NCBI GenBank assembly: GCA_026392035.1
Contig: JAPLCX010000016.1
Location: forward strand, 1 to 57,437
Reading direction: 5' to 3'
DNA from: Candidatus Auribacterota bacterium
Lineage (GTDB): Bacteria; Auribacterota; Tritonobacteria; UBA1439
Length of the DNA stretch: 57,437 nt
The position numbers were made by a program, and so were the translations under genes. Every line of letters starts with the position of its first letter. Within the stretch, counting starts at the first letter, position 1. Of this stretch, positions 241 through 45,766 are shown piece by piece. The notes under the pieces are model-generated. The model made no database searches and was not told the DNA's origin. It saw only the letters and a program-made list of their open reading frames with translations.

Positions 241-359
241 TATCGTCATGCGTCGTTCGTATTTCGTATCTCGTATATCGCAACGAAGAACGATGGACGA
301 ATGGCGAAGTGCGAATGACGAACGACGAAATACGAAATACGAGATACGAACGACGAAGG
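241..359. repeat. Word-type inverted repeat, vocabulary A (CGTATTTCGTATCTCG)
   Basis: Fills the tuf-rpsJ gap. The left arm (about 251-280) reads CGTCGTTCGTATTTCGTATC and onward; the right arm (about 321-355) is its imperfect reverse complement built from ACGAAATACGAGATACGAAC words. The same vocabulary recurs at 2953-3022, 4642-4730, 10108-10140 and 45641-45766. Confidence 0.85.
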
Positions 360-368
360 ACGGAATAA

Positions 369-677
369 ATGGCAAAGCAGAGGATCAGGATCAGGCTCAA
401 GGCGTACGACCACCGGGTGCTCGATCAGTCAACCGAGGAGATCGTTGAGACCGCGAAGAGGACGGGGGCCAAGATATGCGGCCCTATTCCGCTCCCGACG
501 GAGATCGAGCGCTACACGGTATTGCGGTCGCCCCACGTGGACAAGAAATCGCGGGAGCAGTTTGAGATCCGCACGCACAAGAGGCTCCTGGATATTCTTG
601 ACCCGACGGCAAAAACCGTGGATGAGCTGAAGAAGCTCAACCTGCCTGCGGGCGTGGATATCAAGATAAAGCTCTAG
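369..677 (+). CDS. rpsJ: Ribosomal protein S10
   Basis: Protein of the 30S head near the A-site side; the free form pairs with NusB in antitermination. The 102 residues are the usual family length. The N-terminus [20 protein letters not shown], the central [29 protein letters not shown] (tip of the long loop, residues about 38-66) and the RLLDILDPT segment are all canonical. ATG start at 369. The next gene is rplD rather than the expected rplC, only 39 bases downstream. Confidence 0.98.
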
Positions 678-716
678 TGGCAGCTCCGGGGGATCTGGGG
701 CGCACATAGGGGGATC

Positions 717-1340
717 ATGGGTACACTGAAGGTGGTCAACGACAGCGGTGCGGTCGTGGGCGAGGTTGAGGTTTCAGAGAAGCTGGCGCAGGTTCGTGTC
801 AACCCCCAGCTCCTCCACGACGTGATCGTCGGCTATCAGCGAAATCGGCGCCGGGGAACCGCCTCGACGCTCACCAGGGGTGAGGTGCGCGCCTCCGGCA
901 AGAAGCCATGGCGGCAGAAGGGGACCGGCAGGGCGCGGGCGGGTTCCGTTGCGTCGCCCATCTGGCGCGGCGGGGGAGTCACCTTCGGTCCGCAGCCGCG
1001 GGATTTCAGGCGGCTGATACCCCGCGGCCTAAGGGAGCGGGCGCTTGAGGCCGTGTTCGCGGATAAGCTGCGGGAGGGACAGGTGGTGGTGGTGGAGCGC
1101 ATTCCCGACACGGGGGGGAAGACGAAGAAGATGGCGCGCTGGCTCACGCAGATTGACGCGCAGAGGAAACCGCTCATTGTCCTTGGTGAGCCCGGCGTGG
1201 ATGTGGTGCGTGCCGCGCGGAATATCGCGGGCGCCGCGGTGGCGCGGGTGGAGTCGCTGAGTGCCTGGGTGCTGATGGCCCATGGCAAGCTCGTCGTGGC
1301 AAAAGACGTATTCAACAAACTGCAGGAGCGGCTGGGATGA
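717..1340 (+). CDS. rplD: Ribosomal protein L4
   Basis: Early 50S assembly protein lining the exit tunnel, and in some bacteria an autogenous repressor of the S10 operon. It has 207 residues, a normal length. The tunnel-loop motif GTASTLTRGEVRASGKKPWRQKGTGRARAGS lies at about residues 48-79, followed by SPIWRGGGVTFGPQPRDF, the diagnostic block of the family. Its stop overlaps the rplW start (ATGA at 1337-1340), so the two are translationally coupled. It follows rpsJ directly; rplC, normally in between, is absent. Confidence 0.98.
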   Translation: MGTLKVVNDSGAVVGEVEVSEKLAQVRVNPQLLHDVIVGYQRNRRRGTASTLTRGEVRASGKKPWRQKGTGRARAGSVASPIWRGGGVTFGPQPRDFRRLIPRGLRERALEAVFADKLREGQVVVVERIPDTGGKTKKMARWLTQIDAQRKPLIVLGEPGVDVVRAARNIAGAAVARVESLSAWVLMAHGKLVVAKDVFNKLQERLG

Positions 1341-1621
1341 GGCAGCGGTATAGTGTGATCAGGGGGCCGGTGATTACCGAAAAGGCCAGTGGGAAGATGG
1401 AGAGCGATGGCACGTACAGCTTTGAGGTTGACAGCCGGGCGAACAAGATCGAGATCAGGAGGGCTGTCGAGGGGGCGTTCAAGGTGACCGTGACCAGGGT
1501 GAATACCGTGAGCGCACGTGGGAAATTAAAGCGGGTCCGCTGGCAGACGGGAAAGACCCCCGACTGGAAGAAGGCCATGGTGACCCTGAAGAAGGGCGAC
1601 AAGATAGAATACACAACGTAG
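1337..1621 (+). CDS. rplW: Ribosomal protein L23
   Basis: 50S protein at the tunnel exit, docking site for trigger factor and SRP. 94 residues. Recognisable from VIRGPVITEKASGKMES at the N-terminus, the VDSRANKIEIRRAVEGAFKVTVTRVNT core and the terminal VTLKKGDKIEY. Starts with ATG at 1337 inside the rplD stop region. The stop codon is followed within five bases by a word-type hairpin of the CACGGAGACACGGAG class. Confidence 0.97.
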   Translation: MRQRYSVIRGPVITEKASGKMESDGTYSFEVDSRANKIEIRRAVEGAFKVTVTRVNTVSARGKLKRVRWQTGKTPDWKKAMVTLKKGDKIEYTT

Positions 1622-1625
1622 TTTT

Positions 1626-1726
1626 ACCACGGAGACACGGAGCCTGCCGGCAGGCAGGGACACAGAGACCGCACAGAGGGAGATGGCGTATTGATTTTTT
1701 CTCCGTGCTCTCCGTGACTCCGTGGT
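1626..1726. repeat. Word-type inverted repeat, vocabulary B (CACGGAGACACGGAG)
   Basis: rplW-rplB gap. Left arm ACCACGGAGACACGGAG (1626-1642); right arm 1701-1726 is the complementary CTCCGTG..CTCCGTGGT series. A small palindrome, CCTGCCGGCAGG, sits in the left half. Same vocabulary at 6917-6986, 7817-7961 and 34947-35218. Confidence 0.85.
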
Positions 1727-1751
1727 GAAAAAGCAGAAGGTGGAGTAGAAA

Positions 1752-2606
1752 ATGGGTATAAAAAAGTATAGACCGACGACGCCCAGTCGGCGCTGGATCA
1801 CGGGATATGATTTTATTGAGATCACCAAGCGTGAGCCGGAGTGGCGGCTGACCCTGCCCGTCAGGCAGAAGGCGGGGCGCAATTTCATGGGAAGGATCAT
1901 GGTGCGCCACCGCGGAAGCGGCCACAAGCGCCGCTACAGGATGATCGATTTCAGGCGGGATAAACTGAACATTCCTGCCAGGGTTGCGGCGATAGAGTAT
2001 GATCCTAATCGTTCGTCGCGCATCGCCCTCATCCACTACGCAGACGGGGAGAAGCGGTACATCCTCGCCCCGCTCGGTCTCAACGTCAATGATACGGTGG
2101 TCGCGGGGCAGAAGGTTGAGAACAGGGTGGGGAACTGTATGCCGCTTCGCGAGATTCCCCTGGGGACGCTTGTCCATAATGTCGAGCTCAACGCGGGAGG
2201 GGGCGGCGCGTTCGCCCGGAGCGCGGGCGCGGCTGCAGAGCTCATGGCGAGGGAGGGGAAATACGCCCATCTGAAACTCCCCTCTGGAGAGGTGAGACTG
2301 GTGGATGTGAACTGCATGGCGACCGTCGGCCAGATCGGCAACCCCGAGCACGAGTCGGTCAGCCTCGGCAAGGCGGGGCGCAGCCGCTGGCTCGGCCACC
2401 GCCCGAAGGTCCGCGGAGTGGCCCAGAACCCTGTTGATCACCCGATGGGCGGCGGGGAGGGAAAGTCCTCAGGCGGCCGGCATCCCTGCTCGCCGACCGG
2501 GGTGCTCGCGAAGGGCGGCAAGACCCGATCGAAGAGGAAGTCCACGCGCCACATTATCAAGCCGAGGGTGAAGAAGCGCAGGCGGGGCGGGGGCGGACAG
2601 GCCTGA
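1752..2606 (+). CDS. rplB: Ribosomal protein L2
   Basis: Largest protein of the 50S subunit core, needed for subunit joining and peptidyl transferase assembly. 284 residues, close to the family norm. It has the early [18 protein letters not shown] block (about residues 54-71), the SH3-like region and the C-terminal [20 protein letters not shown] segment with its essential histidine, then a basic tail. ATG at 1752 follows a GGTGGAG ribosome binding site. Confidence 0.98.
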
Positions 2607-2667
2607 AGGCGTGCGCCGCATACCCGGCGTCCGAGCGCGGATGCCGGGAAACACGTGAGGAGAGACA

Positions 2668-2952
2668 ATGGCACGATCGTTAAAAAAGGGTGCGTTCGTG
2701 GACGAGAAGCTGCTCGGCAAGATCGAGCGCCTCAATCGGCTGAATGAACGGCGGCCGGTCAAGACATGGGCGCGGAGGAGCATGATTGTACCTGACTTCG
2801 TTGGACACACGTTCTCGGTGCACAACGGGAGGAAATTTATACCTGTGTTTGTCACGGAGAGCATGGTCGGGCACAGGCTCGGTGAATTCTCCCCCACGCG
2901 CACGTTCAGAAAGCATGGCTTTCACACGGAGAAGGCGGTCGCCGTTAAATAG
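2668..2952 (+). CDS. rpsS: Ribosomal protein S19
   Basis: 30S head protein that contacts S13 and the A-site finger of the 50S. 94 residues. It begins [20 protein letters not shown] and carries the signature [41 protein letters not shown] (residues about 36-76). Preceded by GAGGAGAGACA as ribosome binding site. Followed immediately by a vocabulary-A hairpin. Confidence 0.98.
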
Positions 2953-3022
2953 CGTCATTCGTATATCGTATCTCGTCGTTCGCAAACCATAAAGTACGAG
3001 ATACGAGATACGAAATACGGAA
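2953..3022. repeat. Word-type inverted repeat, vocabulary A
   Basis: Occupies essentially the whole rpsS-rplV gap. The left arm begins one base after the rpsS stop with CGTCATTCGTATATCGTATC; the right arm has ACGAGATACGAGATACGAAA. The spacer is only about 10 bases, so the stem would be nearly continuous. Confidence 0.85.
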
Positions 3023-3030
3023 TATATATA

Positions 3031-3420
3031 ATGAAAGAATCACGGGCAGTCGGTAATTACATACGGGTGGCGCCGCGCAAGGCGCGCCTGGTGGTTGATC
3101 TCATCCGCGGCAGGAGTGTCACCGACGCGCTGAACACGCTGGGCCTCTGCCGCAAGAGGGCGGCTCACACGGTGAGGAAAATCCTCGTATCGGCCATGGC
3201 GAATGCCGCGGCGAAAGATACGCCTGAGAGATTCGTGGTGAGGGAGGCCTTTGTTGATGAGGGGCCGACGCTCAAGAGACATATGCCCCGCGCGATGGGG
3301 CGGGCAACAATAATCAGGAAGCGGATGAGCCGTATCACCATCGTCATCGAGGAGCAGGAGGAGAAGGCGAAGCCGCTCCCTCAGAAGAAAAGCGGGCGAC
3401 AGAGAGCGAATATAAAATAA
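3031..3420 (+). CDS. rplV: Ribosomal protein L22
   Basis: 50S protein whose long hairpin reaches into the exit tunnel. 129 residues. Core landmarks are YIRVAPRKARLVVDLIRGRSVTDALN (residues about 10-36), KILVSAMANAAAK and VREAFVDEGPTLKRHMPRAMGRATIIRKRMSRITIVIEE. The C-terminal 20 residues (EKAKPLPQKKSGRQRANIK) are a basic tail. ATG 3031. A vocabulary-C repeat begins at the first base after the stop. Confidence 0.97.
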   Translation: MKESRAVGNYIRVAPRKARLVVDLIRGRSVTDALNTLGLCRKRAAHTVRKILVSAMANAAAKDTPERFVVREAFVDEGPTLKRHMPRAMGRATIIRKRMSRITIVIEEQEEKAKPLPQKKSGRQRANIK

Positions 3421-3555
3421 CAAATACCAAATGACAAATTAATGACAAATACCAAAGGACAAATGTCAAAACATATGAGGTTTTGTCATTCGAATTTTGC
3501 CTGCCCGCCGTACTGAGTACCTCAGTACTCTGGGAGGCGGGTCATTTGTCATTAC
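3421..3555. repeat. Word-type inverted repeat, vocabulary C (ACAAATACCAAATGACAAAT)
   Basis: rplV-rpsC gap. The left half is reiterated ACAAAT/TGACAAAT words (3421-3470); the right half has TTTTGTCATT and GTCATTTGTCATTA (3481-3554). A second, shorter hairpin (GTACTGAG/CTCAGTAC, about 3509-3528) sits inside the right arm, flanked by CCCGCC and GGCGGG. Same vocabulary at 47103-47220. Confidence 0.8.
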
Positions 3556-3575
3556 TAACGAAGGGGAGGTACGCA

Positions 3576-4247
3576 TTGGGTCAGAAAGTAAATCCGATCG
3601 GCTTGCGGCTTGGCATTAATCAAGAGTGGCGGTCGAAGTGGTATGCCGGCAAACGCGAGTTTGGCACGCTCCTCAACGAGGATATCAAGATACGGAACCA
3701 TATCAAGGAGCGGCTCAGTCTCGCCGGTGTCGCGCGCATTTGCATTGAGCGATACGGGAAGAAGGTCAGGATCACTATATGGAGCGCGAGGCCGGGAATT
3801 GTGATCGGCAGAAAGGGCTCAGAGATCGACAAGCTCCGGGACGATCTCGAGAAACTGTCCGGCCGGGAGATCGTACTGGACGTGACCGAGATAAAGAAAC
3901 CGGAGCTCGAGGCGCAGCTCGTCGCGGAGAACGTGGCGCTCCAACTGCTGAAAAGGGTCTCTTTCCGCAGGGCGATGAAGCGGGCGGTGTCGCTCACAAT
4001 GGATGCGGGCGCCCAGGGGATTAAGATCAATTGCGCCGGCCGCCTCGGCGGGGCTGAGATCGCCAGATCCGAGGGGTACCGGGAGGGGAAGATACCGTTG
4101 CACACCCTGCGCGCCATCATTGATTATGGTTTCGCCGAGGCGCACACGCCCTACGGGCAGATCGGCGTCAAGGCGTGGATTTATAAGGGTGAAAAGGCGC
4201 CGGCGAGGGAGGTGACTGGACATGGTGCTCCAGCCCAAAAAGAGTAA
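3576..4247 (+). CDS. rpsC: Ribosomal protein S3
   Basis: 30S head protein at the mRNA entry tunnel. I choose the TTG at 3576, giving 223 residues starting [20 protein letters not shown], the canonical N-terminus, with an AGGGGAGGT ribosome binding site six to fourteen bases upstream. An ATG further upstream (3483) would add residues encoded by the repeat arm and is unlikely. The KH domain ([20 protein letters not shown], about residues 67-86) and the C-terminal [12 protein letters not shown]...[20 protein letters not shown] are complete. It overlaps rplP by 26 bases. Confidence 0.96.
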
Positions 4248-4641
4248 GTTCAGAAAAGCCCAGCGGGGTACGATGAAGGGGCACGCGACGAGGGGGGCCA
4301 CGGTTGCCTTCGGCGAATACGGCCTCCAGTCGCTCGAGAGCGCGTGGATTACCACCACGCAGATCGAGGCGGCGAGGGTTGCCATCACACGGCACATGAA
4401 ACGCCATGGGAAGGTCTGGATACGGATATTCCCGGATAAGCCAGTGACCAAAAAGCCGGCGGAGACCAGGATGGGGAAGGGCAAGGGGCCGCCCGAGACC
4501 TGGGTGGCGGTGGTGAGGAGGGGGAGGATCATCTTCGAAATAGACGGAATCACTGAGGGCATGGCTCAGGAGACGATGAGCCGGGCGGCGGCAAAGCTGG
4601 GGATCAGGACGCGATTTGTGTCGCGGGGCGGGACACCATAA
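4222..4641 (+). CDS. rplP: Ribosomal protein L16
   Basis: 50S protein at the A- and P-site tRNA elbow region. 139 residues. Family landmarks: [16 protein letters not shown] near the N-terminus, [24 protein letters not shown], then [25 protein letters not shown] (about residues 69-93) and the closing [18 protein letters not shown] at 4222 lies inside rpsC, so translation is probably coupled. Confidence 0.97.
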
Positions 4642-4730
4642 TTCGTCGTTCGTCATTCGTATTTCGTTGTTCGTAAATCGTACTTCGTTGCGATATACGA
4701 AATACGAGATACAAACGACGATGTACGACT
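4642..4730. repeat. Word-type inverted repeat, vocabulary A
   Basis: rplP-rpmC gap. The left arm starts right after the stop codon with TTCGTCGTTCGTCATTCGTA; the right arm (about 4690-4722) has GATATACGAAATACGAGATA followed by CAAACGACGA. The rpmC ribosome binding site GAGGTAG follows the right arm. Confidence 0.85.
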
Positions 4731-4742
4731 AGTGAGGTAGCG

Positions 4743-4967
4743 GTGAAGGCGAAGGAAATGAGGGACAAAACGTCGGAGGAGTTGAATCATCTTCTCGCCG
4801 CCTGGCGTGAGGAGTTGTTCAACCTCAATGTGCGGGCGATGACCGGACAGATGAAGCAGTACAGCAGGGTGAGAGAGATAAAGAAGGATATCGCCCGGGT
4901 TCTCACGATTGTGAGGGGAACGCGTACGGCGAGCCCGGTTCGCGACAAGGAGAGCACGGCATCATGA
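4743..4967 (+). CDS. rpmC: Ribosomal protein L29
   Basis: Small helical 50S protein beside L23 at the tunnel exit. GTG start at 4743 with GAGGTAG just upstream; 74 residues. MKAKEMRDKTSEELNHLLAAWREELFNLNVRAMTGQ followed by REIKKDIARVLTIVR is the family pattern of two antiparallel helices. The last 12 or so residues (TRTASPVRDKESTAS) are an unconserved tail. Overlaps the rpsQ start by four bases. Confidence 0.95.
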   Translation: MKAKEMRDKTSEELNHLLAAWREELFNLNVRAMTGQMKQYSRVREIKKDIARVLTIVRGTRTASPVRDKESTAS

Positions 4968-5371
4968 CCATTCAGGCGAGGGGCAAGAAAAAGGTGCGCG
5001 TCGGCACGGTGGTGGCCGACAAGATGAAGAAGACGCTCGTGGTGGATGTGGAACGCGCCTACCGGCACCGGTTCTATGACAAGGTCGTTCGAGCGGTTTC
5101 CAGGTGCTATGTTCACGACGAGCGCGGGGAGGCGCATCCGGGCGATATCGTGCGCATCATGGAGTGCAGGCCGTTGAGCAGGCTCAAGCGGTGGAGACTG
5201 GTTGAAATTGTGAAAAAGGGCAAAGGCATCGAAGCGCCGGGGAGAAGCGAGGAAGAGATACGCGAGCTGCAGGAAGAGATACGGGGGGTGTCAGCAGAAG
5301 CCCCCCCTGCGGTTGAGCGCGCAGGCGTGGCGGAAGAATCAGCTGACACATCACAGACTGGGAGGGAGTAG
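4964..5371 (+). CDS. rpsQ: Ribosomal protein S17 with long acidic C-terminal tail
   Basis: Primary 30S assembly protein with an OB fold. Residues about 9-84 are typical (VRVGTVVADKMKKTLVVDVE, HDERGEAHPGDIVRIMECRPLSRLKRWRLVEIV). The protein is 135 residues, whereas the family is usually 80-90. The extra C-terminal 50 residues are rich in Glu and Ala (EEEIRELQEEIRGVSAEAPP and on), predicted helical then disordered. The tail shows no word repeat, so it is not the same phenomenon as in rplO. A repeat starts at the stop codon. Confidence 0.95.
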   Translation: MTIQARGKKKVRVGTVVADKMKKTLVVDVERAYRHRFYDKVVRAVSRCYVHDERGEAHPGDIVRIMECRPLSRLKRWRLVEIVKKGKGIEAPGRSEEEIRELQEEIRGVSAEAPPAVERAGVAEESADTSQTGRE

Positions 5372-26827: not shown

Positions 26828-26905
26828 AAGTGCCTCTACATAAAATTATACTATTATCGAGGGCATTGTGGGAAGGTCTTTCGACGCAGCACAATAATGG
26901 ATCTC

Positions 26906-27033
26906 AGAAGGTGTGAAAAAATCGTATTTTCAGCGCGTGTACACTGATATGAGAAATTGTCATTGCGATCCCGCTTAGCGGGACTCGGCGTCCTCGCAAT
27001 GACAACCTTAATACTGATTTTTTCACACCTTCT
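26906..27033. mobile_element. MITE-like element with 18-bp perfect terminal inverted repeats, short form
   Basis: The ends AGAAGGTGTGAAAAAATC (26906-26923) and its exact reverse complement (27016-27033) enclose an inner inverted repeat (TTGTCATTGCGATCCCGC against CTCGCAATGACAA) with the palindrome CCCGCTTAGCGGGA at the apex (26970-26983). No coding capacity and no clear target duplication. A longer version lies at 36498-36755. The rest of the 26828-27331 gap has single-arm words (GCCGCGGATGAACGCGGATA near 27051, AAAGTTGGAGGCTAAAAG near 27093) and a promoter at 27167. Confidence 0.75.
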
Positions 27034-27166
27034 CAGTTATGGGGGATAGCCGCGGATGAACGCGGATAAACGCTGATCCGGCCTACGGTTTAAAGTTGGA
27101 GGCTAAAAGTTTAAAAAATCGTTCCGGTAACATTAATGTGAGGCCCTTTAATATGAGGCAGTTCTA

Positions 27167-39176: not shown

Positions 39177-39596
39177 GTGCCCAAGAGAAACAGGAAATGC
39201 GATGAGGGGCTCTCCATGGCTGCGCTGACGGGGAAGTGGGTCCTCCTGGCGGCGATGGCCGTCTCCCTGTCGCTCCTGTATGTGTGGCAGCACGTGCAGC
39301 TGGTGCGCACCGGGTACACGATAAAGAGAATCGAAAGAGAAGTCGCAGAGTGGCAGAAAACCAATGAGACGCTGAAGCTGGAGAACGAGCGGCTCAAGAA
39401 TCCGCAGCGTATCGAACACGTGCTCGCCCAAAACAATCTGGGCCTCGTGTTCCCTCAGGCGAAGGATATTGTCCGGCTCCGCTATTACCGCCACGCGAAT
39501 GAACGGGATAAGGAGAAATCGGGGAGCGAAGGGGGCACCGATACTCTTTTGAGTTACAGGAGCGGCGGGGGCGGAGCCGGACATGACAATATGTAA
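39177..39596 (+). CDS. ftsL: FtsL-like division protein
   Basis: Bitopic divisome protein. GTG 39177 with CAGGAGAACGCG upstream, 139 residues. Short cytosolic head, membrane span at about 19-38 (GKWVLLAAMAVSLSLLYVWQ), then a coiled coil (GYTIKRIEREVAEWQKTNETLKLENERLKNP, 46-76) and PQRIEHVLAQNNLGLVFPQAKDIVRL, the pattern of FtsL. The tail from about residue 108 is polar and poorly conserved. The sequence is weakly conserved in general, so position before ftsI is part of the evidence. Confidence 0.85.
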   Translation: MPKRNRKCDEGLSMAALTGKWVLLAAMAVSLSLLYVWQHVQLVRTGYTIKRIEREVAEWQKTNETLKLENERLKNPQRIEHVLAQNNLGLVFPQAKDIVRLRYYRHANERDKEKSGSEGGTDTLLSYRSGGGGAGHDNM

Positions 39597-39720
39597 ATGT
39601 GGCACGGGTGCCGCGCCCGGCGCGGCATGGGCCAACGCGCACGTGTATCGTGGCCTCCCATAATTCGTGCTCACGTGCTCAACGCCGCTCAGTGCGGCGG
39701 GTGTATAAAAGGCGAGTATA

Positions 39721-41487
39721 ATGTTGACTGGCAAGAAGTACAGGCTTAAGTCGTTTTCTGTCTATTTATTTTTTCTCCTCTGCTTCTCCTGCCTCTACTA
39801 CAGACTCTTCCTCCTCCAGATTGTCAACCACGAAGCACTCCTCAACAGGGGGCTCAGTCTCCACCGTCTCAATGTGAAGATAGATCCCCGCAGGGGGAAT
39901 ATCTACGATCGCGAGGGAAGGCCGCTGGCCATGAGCATGCGCGTGAAGTCGGCCTACGCCGAACCCGACAAATTCGCGTCGACGGAAGGGGCTGCGCGCT
40001 CCCTCGCGCGCTGCCTCTCCCTCCCGTACGAGCAGCTCCTGGAAAAATTGAACAAGAAGAAAAAATTCGTGTGGCTGGCCAGGAAGCTCGACCGCAATCT
40101 GGCGGACCGGATCGAGCGCCTGCAGATCGGGGGCGTCGGCTTCCGCGAAGAGGTGAAGAGGGTGTATCCCCAGGGGGGCCTCCTCAGCCATGTGCTCGGT
40201 TTTGTTGATATCGACAACCGCGGCCTGGAGGGGATCGAGCTCCAGGAGGACCAGTACCTGCGCGGGCAATCGGGTTGGATGGCTTCCCACAGAGACCGCA
40301 AGGGCCGTGAGATTATGACCCTCCGGAGCCAGGATATCCCTCCCCTTGACGGTTACGACCTCTCGCTCACCATGGATGCGGTCATCCAGTACATCGCGGA
40401 GAGCGAACTCGAAAAGGGATGCCGCCAGTTCAACGCGGCGGCGGGGTGCCTCATCGTGCTGAATCCGAAAACGGGAGCGGTGCTCGCGCTCGCCAACTGG
40501 CCCGCATACGACCCCAACTCCCCATCGGATTTCCCTGCGGAGTACCGGCGCAACCGGTGCATCACTGACGTGTATGAACCCGGGTCGACGTTCAAGGTCG
40601 TCACCGTGGCCGCTGCGCTGGACAGGGGATGCATCACGATGAGCGATGTCCTCTTCTGTGAGAATGGGGCCTTCCGCGTCGGCAGGCACACCCTGCACGA
40701 TGTGCATCCCTATGGGAATCTCAGCACGGTGGAGGTGATCCGGAAGTCGAGCAATATCGGAGCCGTGAAGGTCGCGATGAGGCTCGGCGAGGAGGGGCTC
40801 TATCGCGGCATCCATCGGTTCGGATTCGGCTCCCCCACGGGCATAGGGTTGCCGGGCGAGGTGGGCGGTATGCTGCACCCGCTCAGCCGGTGGTCGGGCC
40901 TGTCCATCGCCGCCGTCCCCATGGGACAGGAGCTGGGCGTCACGCCGCTCCAGATGGCCATGGCGGTGGCGGCGCTCGCAAACGGGGGCGTCGCGATGAG
41001 ACCGTACATTATTGAAACGGTGAAAGACAGTTCGGGCAGGGTCGTCAAGTCCTATTCGCCCGAGGTGAGGGGGAGGGTCGTGAGCGAGGCGACGGCGGCA
41101 GCCCTGGTGAGCGCCATGGAGGGCGTCCCGAGCCGCGAGGGAACGGCGCCCCGCGCGGCACTTGAGGAGTACACCGTGGCGGGAAAGACGGGCACGTCAC
41201 AGAAGGTTGATCCGGATGGCCGCTACTCGCACTCCAGATTCGTGGGGTCGTTCGTGGGGTTCGCCCCGTCAAAAGATCCCGCGGCATTGATCCTGGTCGC
41301 CCTCGATGAGCCCAGACCCCTCTACTACGGCGGAACGGTGGCCGCGCCCGTATTCAGGGAGGTTGCGAAGAGGGTGTTGAAATATCTCGCGATCCCGCCG
41401 GAGAAGGGCGACGGGGGGGTCAAGGTGGTGTGGGACGCTCCGGCGGCGCGCCTCTCGAAGGGCGCCGCTCCTGAGTACGCCGATTGA
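39721..41487 (+). CDS. ftsI: Division-specific peptidoglycan transpeptidase FtsI (PBP class B)
   Basis: Cross-links septal peptidoglycan together with FtsW. 588 residues. N-terminal span (FSVYLFFLLCFSCLYYRLFLLQIV), pedestal domain with RRGNIYDREGRPLAMS, transpeptidase domain with STFK (serine 289), SSN at 343-345 and KTG at 489-491. Full length, no PASTA domain. The 124 bases before it have GC-rich GCCGCGCCCGGCGCGGC but no word-type repeat. ATG 39721. Confidence 0.95.
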   Translation: MLTGKKYRLKSFSVYLFFLLCFSCLYYRLFLLQIVNHEALLNRGLSLHRLNVKIDPRRGNIYDREGRPLAMSMRVKSAYAEPDKFASTEGAARSLARCLSLPYEQLLEKLNKKKKFVWLARKLDRNLADRIERLQIGGVGFREEVKRVYPQGGLLSHVLGFVDIDNRGLEGIELQEDQYLRGQSGWMASHRDRKGREIMTLRSQDIPPLDGYDLSLTMDAVIQYIAESELEKGCRQFNAAAGCLIVLNPKTGAVLALANWPAYDPNSPSDFPAEYRRNRCITDVYEPGSTFKVVTVAAALDRGCITMSDVLFCENGAFRVGRHTLHDVHPYGNLSTVEVIRKSSNIGAVKVAMRLGEEGLYRGIHRFGFGSPTGIGLPGEVGGMLHPLSRWSGLSIAAVPMGQELGVTPLQMAMAVAALANGGVAMRPYIIETVKDSSGRVVKSYSPEVRGRVVSEATAAALVSAMEGVPSREGTAPRAALEEYTVAGKTGTSQKVDPDGRYSHSRFVGSFVGFAPSKDPAALILVALDEPRPLYYGGTVAAPVFREVAKRVLKYLAIPPEKGDGGVKVVWDAPAARLSKGAAPEYAD

Positions 41488-45641: not shown

Positions 45642-45766
45642 TTCGTACGTCGTCGTTCGTACTTCGTTCGCGATGTGCGAAAGACGAGATACGAGAGACG
45701 AACGACGAAGGACCAGTGGTGGGGATGGACGTGAGACGAACGACGAACGACGAACGACGGACACAG
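45641..45766. repeat. Word-type repeat, vocabulary A
   Basis: mraY-murD gap. TTCGTACGTCGTCGTTCGTA (from 45642) faces GAAAGACGAGATACGAGAGA and ACGAACGACGAACGACGAAC (45680-45757). In-frame reading of the right half would give an Arg-rich extension of MurD, which I reject. Confidence 0.85.

Follow-up and report, generated by a model that had tools for sequence, protein, structure and literature searches.

Two copies of one terminal-repeat element lie in the window analyzed here, a 57,437-nt stretch from a Candidatus Auribacterota bacterium (JAPLCX010000016.1) that constitutes contig C16 of a 2.8-Mb, 122-contig assembly. Both were found where the original prediction had placed them, at 26906-27033 and 36498-36755. 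Their nominal lengths of 128 and 258 bp count one base per target duplication: the flanking A or T included by the prediction is part of the duplication, and the elements proper measure 126 bp (26907-27032) and 256 bp (36499-36754), both on the forward strand. The short element is flanked by TCA on the left (26904-26906) and by an identical TCA on the right (27033-27035), the latter followed by GTTATGGGGG. Its left terminal inverted repeat, GAAGGTGTGAAAAAATC, occupies 26907-26923 on the forward strand and the right one 27016-27032 on the reverse strand, and between them lies a 45-bp deleted version of a hairpin core, GTCATTGCGA...TCGCAATGAC (26959-27003, forward). The long element has its terminal inverted repeats at 36499-36515 (forward) and 36738-36754 (reverse), and its flanks, TCA and TAA, do not match. 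Its core is a 175-bp long-loop version (36551-36725, forward) in which an 87-nt apical loop (36585-36671, forward) stands between GCAATC and GATTGC in place of the usual 21-nt one.

The two copies are nearly identical in their outer parts, as predicted, with no difference over the first 63 bp and a single one over the last 65 bp. Their perfect terminal repeats measured 17 to 18 bp, where 18 had been given. The palindrome CCCGCTTAGCGGGA occurs once in the short copy and twice in the long one, where the extra hairpins are flanked by a GTTAAG and a CTTAGC variant. Both copies fold 9 to 10 SD better than shuffled sequences, and an Rfam search of the window returned no match. A MITE of another family, with CTAGTGT... 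ends, lies at 35008-35172 (forward) and carries the same hairpin core at 35044-35136; since this CTAG-ended element sits at the CTAG apex of a palindrome (AACAACAGTTTCTCGTTTCTAG), the region 34981-35199 comprises three nested inverted repeats. The long MITE is located upstream of a dcw-type cell-division cluster (37676-41487) encoding an MraW methylase and a penicillin-binding protein, and GTGG repeats resembling MraZ boxes are present just downstream of the element (36840-36930). Repeats resembling CGAAATACGAGATACGAACGACG occur at several sites of the window (250-5000 and 45678-45760), in places with a 14-bp spacing.

When up to two mismatches were allowed, the end GAAGGTGTGAAAAAATC was matched 40 times in the 2.8-Mb genome, and a reversed control pattern gave no match. 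Pairing of the ends yielded 13 well-preserved elements, including ten small ones (128, 129, 141, 185, 192 [three copies], 194, 258, and 274 bp) and three of about 2 kb. The ca. 2-kb elements on contigs C18 and C69, whose ends are identical to those of the small elements, encode IS1182-family transposases (NCBIfam NF033551; Pfam DUF772 and DDE domains). The NF033551 scores were 334 bits for C18 and 258 bits for C69, of which only the former passes the 270-bit cut-off, and both transposase genes are frame-broken in the assembly. A transposase with matching ends, proposed earlier as a check on the element, is thus present in this genome, and the view of one terminal-repeat element that has recently spread was borne out. 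Both window repeats are short (126 and 256 bp) and devoid of a transposase gene, they share their ends with transposase-bearing elements of the same genome (C18 and C69), and the target duplication has a constant length of 3 bp. By size, ends, and target duplication, they are MITEs, i.e., small non-autonomous elements. We considered whether their arms are remnants of the C18 and C69 insertion sequences after internal deletion, but the small hairpin-core elements show no similarity to these two copies beyond the 17-bp ends, and the progenitor may be another element.

Target duplications, the second check that had been proposed, were also found. A 3-bp TNA duplication is identical on the two sides of 12 of the 13 well-preserved copies in the genome. 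Furthermore, 75 of the 86 copies listed from this and public genomes have identical flanks of exactly 3 bp, compared with 37% for random pairing, and these identical flanks are nearly always TCA or TGA. The 258-bp copy is the sole well-preserved one in the genome that lacks a matching duplication. Its TCA/TAA flanks could be the product of recombination or of one point mutation. Both flanks resemble a GTAAY half-site, yet roughly symmetric targets are seen in other copies, so that a mutated duplication is equally possible; this copy was therefore not relied on as proof of a crossover between two insertions.

Alignment of the target sites gave the consensus GTAAYNN(C/G)TCAGTTANNGGGGG, which is seen in several phyla. 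In this genome, the target-site sequence is the end of other repeats, and a matching opposite end was present at 12 of 39 sites, in each case on the G side. The C43 insertion site has a nearly identical relative at C91:10949-10966 that is uninterrupted, and comparison shows the insertion at C43 to be clean. These features differ from those of IS1272, the studied member of the IS1182 family, which replaces stem-loops without target duplication and without a target consensus (PMC5678879, PMC4923244). IS1272 has in common with the elements studied here a transposase of the IS1182 family, ends of about 16 bp, and a biology in which hairpins are central, but insertions here give a 3-bp TNA duplication at a sequence consensus. 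An IS1272-like stem-loop replacement was rejected as the insertion mechanism because of this duplication, and the clean insertion at C43 argues against it as well. At C91:10932-11203 and C106:161-343, a second repeat family (ends GTAATGGG...) directly adjoins a 17-bp IS1182-type end; the nesting is mutual, as IS1182-type elements also insert into the ends of the GTAATGGG-ended family.

The hairpin core is not confined to elements with IS1182-type ends. GTCATTGCGA occurs 112 times in this genome and its reversed control not at all; classification of the arms covered 74 core entries, a few of which are sub-matches of one core. The core is central in elements with at least four types of ends, namely, the IS1182-type, CTAGTGT... 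(the family that includes window positions 35008-35172), the TTATTAATGGGAGCA-type, and GTAAYNNNTCAGTSA. Most cores are flanked by the paired outer arms of terminal-repeat elements, and a sizeable minority of copies have no recognizable family arms. Cores with mixed arms, in which two families are joined, were found at C91:11065, C65:27154, C14:4064, C45:1318, and C61:7310 and at both cores of a unit on C85. Matching duplications flank the mixed-arm unit on C91 (TCG) and the C85 unit (TGA). The latter (C85:37836-39851, L061) is about 2 kb in size, and has the same ends but no transposase. Its two complete hairpin cores enclose a DUF4172-Fic gene and an AbiEii-like fragment; a close second copy of Fic was not found in this genome. 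A second genome, G001, from another genus of the same family, is alike in that several arm families surround the same core and some arms have more than one partner (L372, L373, and L376). Cores that join the arms of different families suggest that the core also shuffles arms.

The wide distribution of the core could alternatively be explained if the core were itself a mobile element that replaces the apical stem-loops of other hairpins, MITE families having acquired it in this manner. Such an activity has been reported, without target duplication, for the IS1182-family member IS1272 (PMC5678879, PMC4923244), and it is in agreement with this idea that the core occupies the center of several unrelated families of terminal-repeat elements and that no duplication is evident next to it. 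However, no transposase with GTCATTGCGA-type ends was seen in a non-systematic look, and the exchange boundaries inside the core fall at conserved segments, as homology predicts. In addition, copies of family E without the core were not found, so there is no before/after pair for core acquisition. We consider such a stem-loop-replacing core unlikely. The IS1182-type ends also enclose another dispersed palindrome (TGTAGGGG...CCCCTACA), at C19:6950, C43:9743, C54:4484, and C75:11600 and in G001.

The common form of the IS1182-ended small element is 192 bp long (C79 and C84); a related copy on C88 has the same length, and that on C60 is 194 bp. The 192-bp form holds TCCCGCTAAGCGGGA and TCCCGCTTAGCGGGA, whose starts are 64 bp apart. 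Removal of exactly this 64-bp interval gives the 128-bp copy of the window, with two single-base differences left. The deletion endpoints are two 15-bp near-direct repeats (TCCCGCTWAGCGGGA), and of the two copies that the 192-bp form contains at a distance of exactly 64 bp, the short element retains a single TCCCGCTTAGCGGGA at the junction (26969-26983, forward). Collapsed cores are also present in other copies, with 22 bp left on C14 and C45 and 55 bp on C65. The full core with its loop is also present in other arm families, in the same-class genome G006, and in a deltaproteobacterial assembly; the shortening is therefore the derived state. As judged from these sequences, the 192-bp form is the common ancestral form and the 128-bp copy is its deletion product.

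The long copy differs from the 192-bp form in another way. The loop delimited by GCAATC and GATTGC is 21 nt long in the 192-bp form and 87 nt long in the 258-bp copy, and the difference of 66 nt explains the entire change from 192 to 258 bp, with stems that are nearly identical. The 87-nt loop is not a duplicate of local element sequence. Related loops of 86 to 87 nt, 85 to 91% identical, occur at the same position on C5 (inside another repeat), C70, and C73 of this genome, and C93 has a partial match; a donor with an exactly identical 87-nt loop was not found in the genome, the best being 91%. In G001, two cores have a related long loop bounded by the same hexamers, and the stems of the long-loop L351 and its short-loop sibling L347 are identical. 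The 258-bp copy is best read as one loop replaced by another at fixed boundaries, rather than as a loop added.

These results bear directly on the interpretation offered in the original prediction, in which the element grows stepwise at its tip through template-switch duplication, from a 128-bp start to a 258-bp product. All length variation between the two copies is indeed apical, the variants form a nested series, and the extra DNA is rich in hairpins. Nevertheless, progressive growth fails as an account, because the extra DNA is of a type already dispersed elsewhere and the short form arose by deletion. One size step is exactly a deletion from repeat to repeat and the other exactly an exchange of loops, the 87 nt were not copied from neighboring element sequence, and the looped core exists in another genus. 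The two window copies thus differ in size because part of the central hairpin was deleted in one, whereas in the other its loop was exchanged for one of a pre-existing type; the apex did not grow progressively. We regard apical growth as very improbable, and template-switch expansion falls with it, although template switching is one possible route of loop exchange.

Short-read misassembly could in principle have created the long copy and the mixed-arm copies, since the genome was read from a fragmented assembly alone, repeats are where misjoins occur, assembly is difficult for repeats of 80 to 260 bp, and the flanks of the 258-bp copy do not form a duplication. It is equally improbable. The long-loop replacement recurs with the same boundaries in the assembly of another genus, the mixed-arm units on C91 and C85 are bounded by matching duplications, and no other locus is an exact match to the 87-nt loop of the long copy, while a misjoin should leave its source copy. 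An ancestral polymorphism, in which long- and short-loop cores are two old lineages that acquired their ends independently and without recent exchange, agrees with the presence of both loop types in two genera but is most doubtful, given that the outer arms of the 258- and 192-bp forms differ by 0 to 1 base each around unrelated loops, which independent origin would not lead one to expect, that L351 and L347 share identical stems, and that the arms of long- and short-loop copies are not consistently diverged.

We therefore favor, with a probability of about three in four, the explanation that these are trans-mobilized MITEs of IS1182 type in which the tip of the core has been changed by direct-repeat deletion and loop exchange and the arms have been mixed by core exchange. 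The sequences themselves show the ends, the target duplications, the transposase-bearing elements with shared ends, and the mixed arms, and also that the deletion and the loop replacement are exact; from them we infer that the MITEs are mobilized in trans and by which recombination route loops and arms were exchanged. Most likely, an IS1182-family transposase recognizes the 17- to 18-bp ends and moves the MITEs in trans. It would generate the 3-bp TNA duplication, preferably inside a GTAAYNNNTCAGTTAYGGGG site, a sequence that also forms the end of another repeat family. Deletion between direct repeats would remove palindromic modules, as in the conversion of the 192-bp form to the 128-bp copy, and the loop enclosed by the inverted hexamers GCAATC and GATTGC may be exchanged with the loops of other cores, yielding the 258-bp copy. 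Such exchange could proceed by homology-anchored recombination or by replication template switching, with conserved stem segments as the anchor in either case. Since several transposon families contain the same core, exchange inside it would join the arms of different families.

The origin of MITEs and the changes of their interiors are poorly understood in bacteria, and in the present elements the events can be followed base by base: one module deletion, one fixed-boundary loop exchange in two genera, and cores that join the arms of different families. If core exchange regularly recombines ends and interiors, new mini-transposons could arise in this way, and genes could be captured, as with the Fic gene on C85. 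More tentatively, the GTCATTGCGA core may serve as an exchange hub across transposon families from which new units, including gene-carrying ones, are built, with IS1182-type ends repeatedly enclosing locally abundant hairpins in several phyla. An exact text search of papers for the core sequence retrieved no relevant paper, and within a partial coverage of the literature we found no account of a single hairpin core that is common to several MITE families and recombines among them.

Small palindromic repeats such as Correia/NEMIS, ERIC, and BOX have discrete internal size classes. Here, by contrast, the size classes go back to a single exact deletion and a single loop replacement, and families that differ in their ends have the core in common. 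The elements resemble the MITEs of known IS families (PMC10969869) in that they are short, lack a transposase gene, and possess terminal repeats, target duplications, and the ends of a full insertion sequence; however, only the 17-bp ends are common with the insertion sequence here, and the interior is a dispersed core that is common to other MITE families and has an exchangeable loop. The C85 Fic unit can be compared with TIMEs, mosaic non-autonomous transposons, and mobile insertion cassettes, all of which have non-autonomous ends around foreign genes. TIMEs have Tn3-family ends of 38 bp and duplications of 5 to 6 bp (PMC4133298), whereas a single pair of IS1182-type ends surrounds the C85 unit, with the cargo placed between two hairpin cores. 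REP sequences are likewise dispersed palindromic repeats with which insertion sequences are associated at fixed positions, but there the insertion sequence inserts into the palindrome (PMC1525189), and here the palindrome is inside the mobile element.

The same ends were found, among the matches listed, in at least Acidobacteria, Deltaproteobacteria, Omnitrophota, Riflebacteria, and others. Grouped by their interiors, the small elements in these matches fall into 29 families, many of them with unrelated interiors. Without the ends, the interior folds more than 3 SD better than shuffles in 16 of the 29 families listed versus 1 of 29 adjacent control stretches (Mann-Whitney P = 8e-6 for the 29 listed interior families, which are not fully independent because three contain the GTCATTGCGA core). 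All four genomes checked are rich in core-type motifs. A 244-bp family with the same ends and another conserved interior (CCCACAGGGTTGGG...) was also observed (L116, L126, L142, L143, L193, L194, and L225) and is common to several Deltaproteobacteria and Syntrophaceae assemblies.
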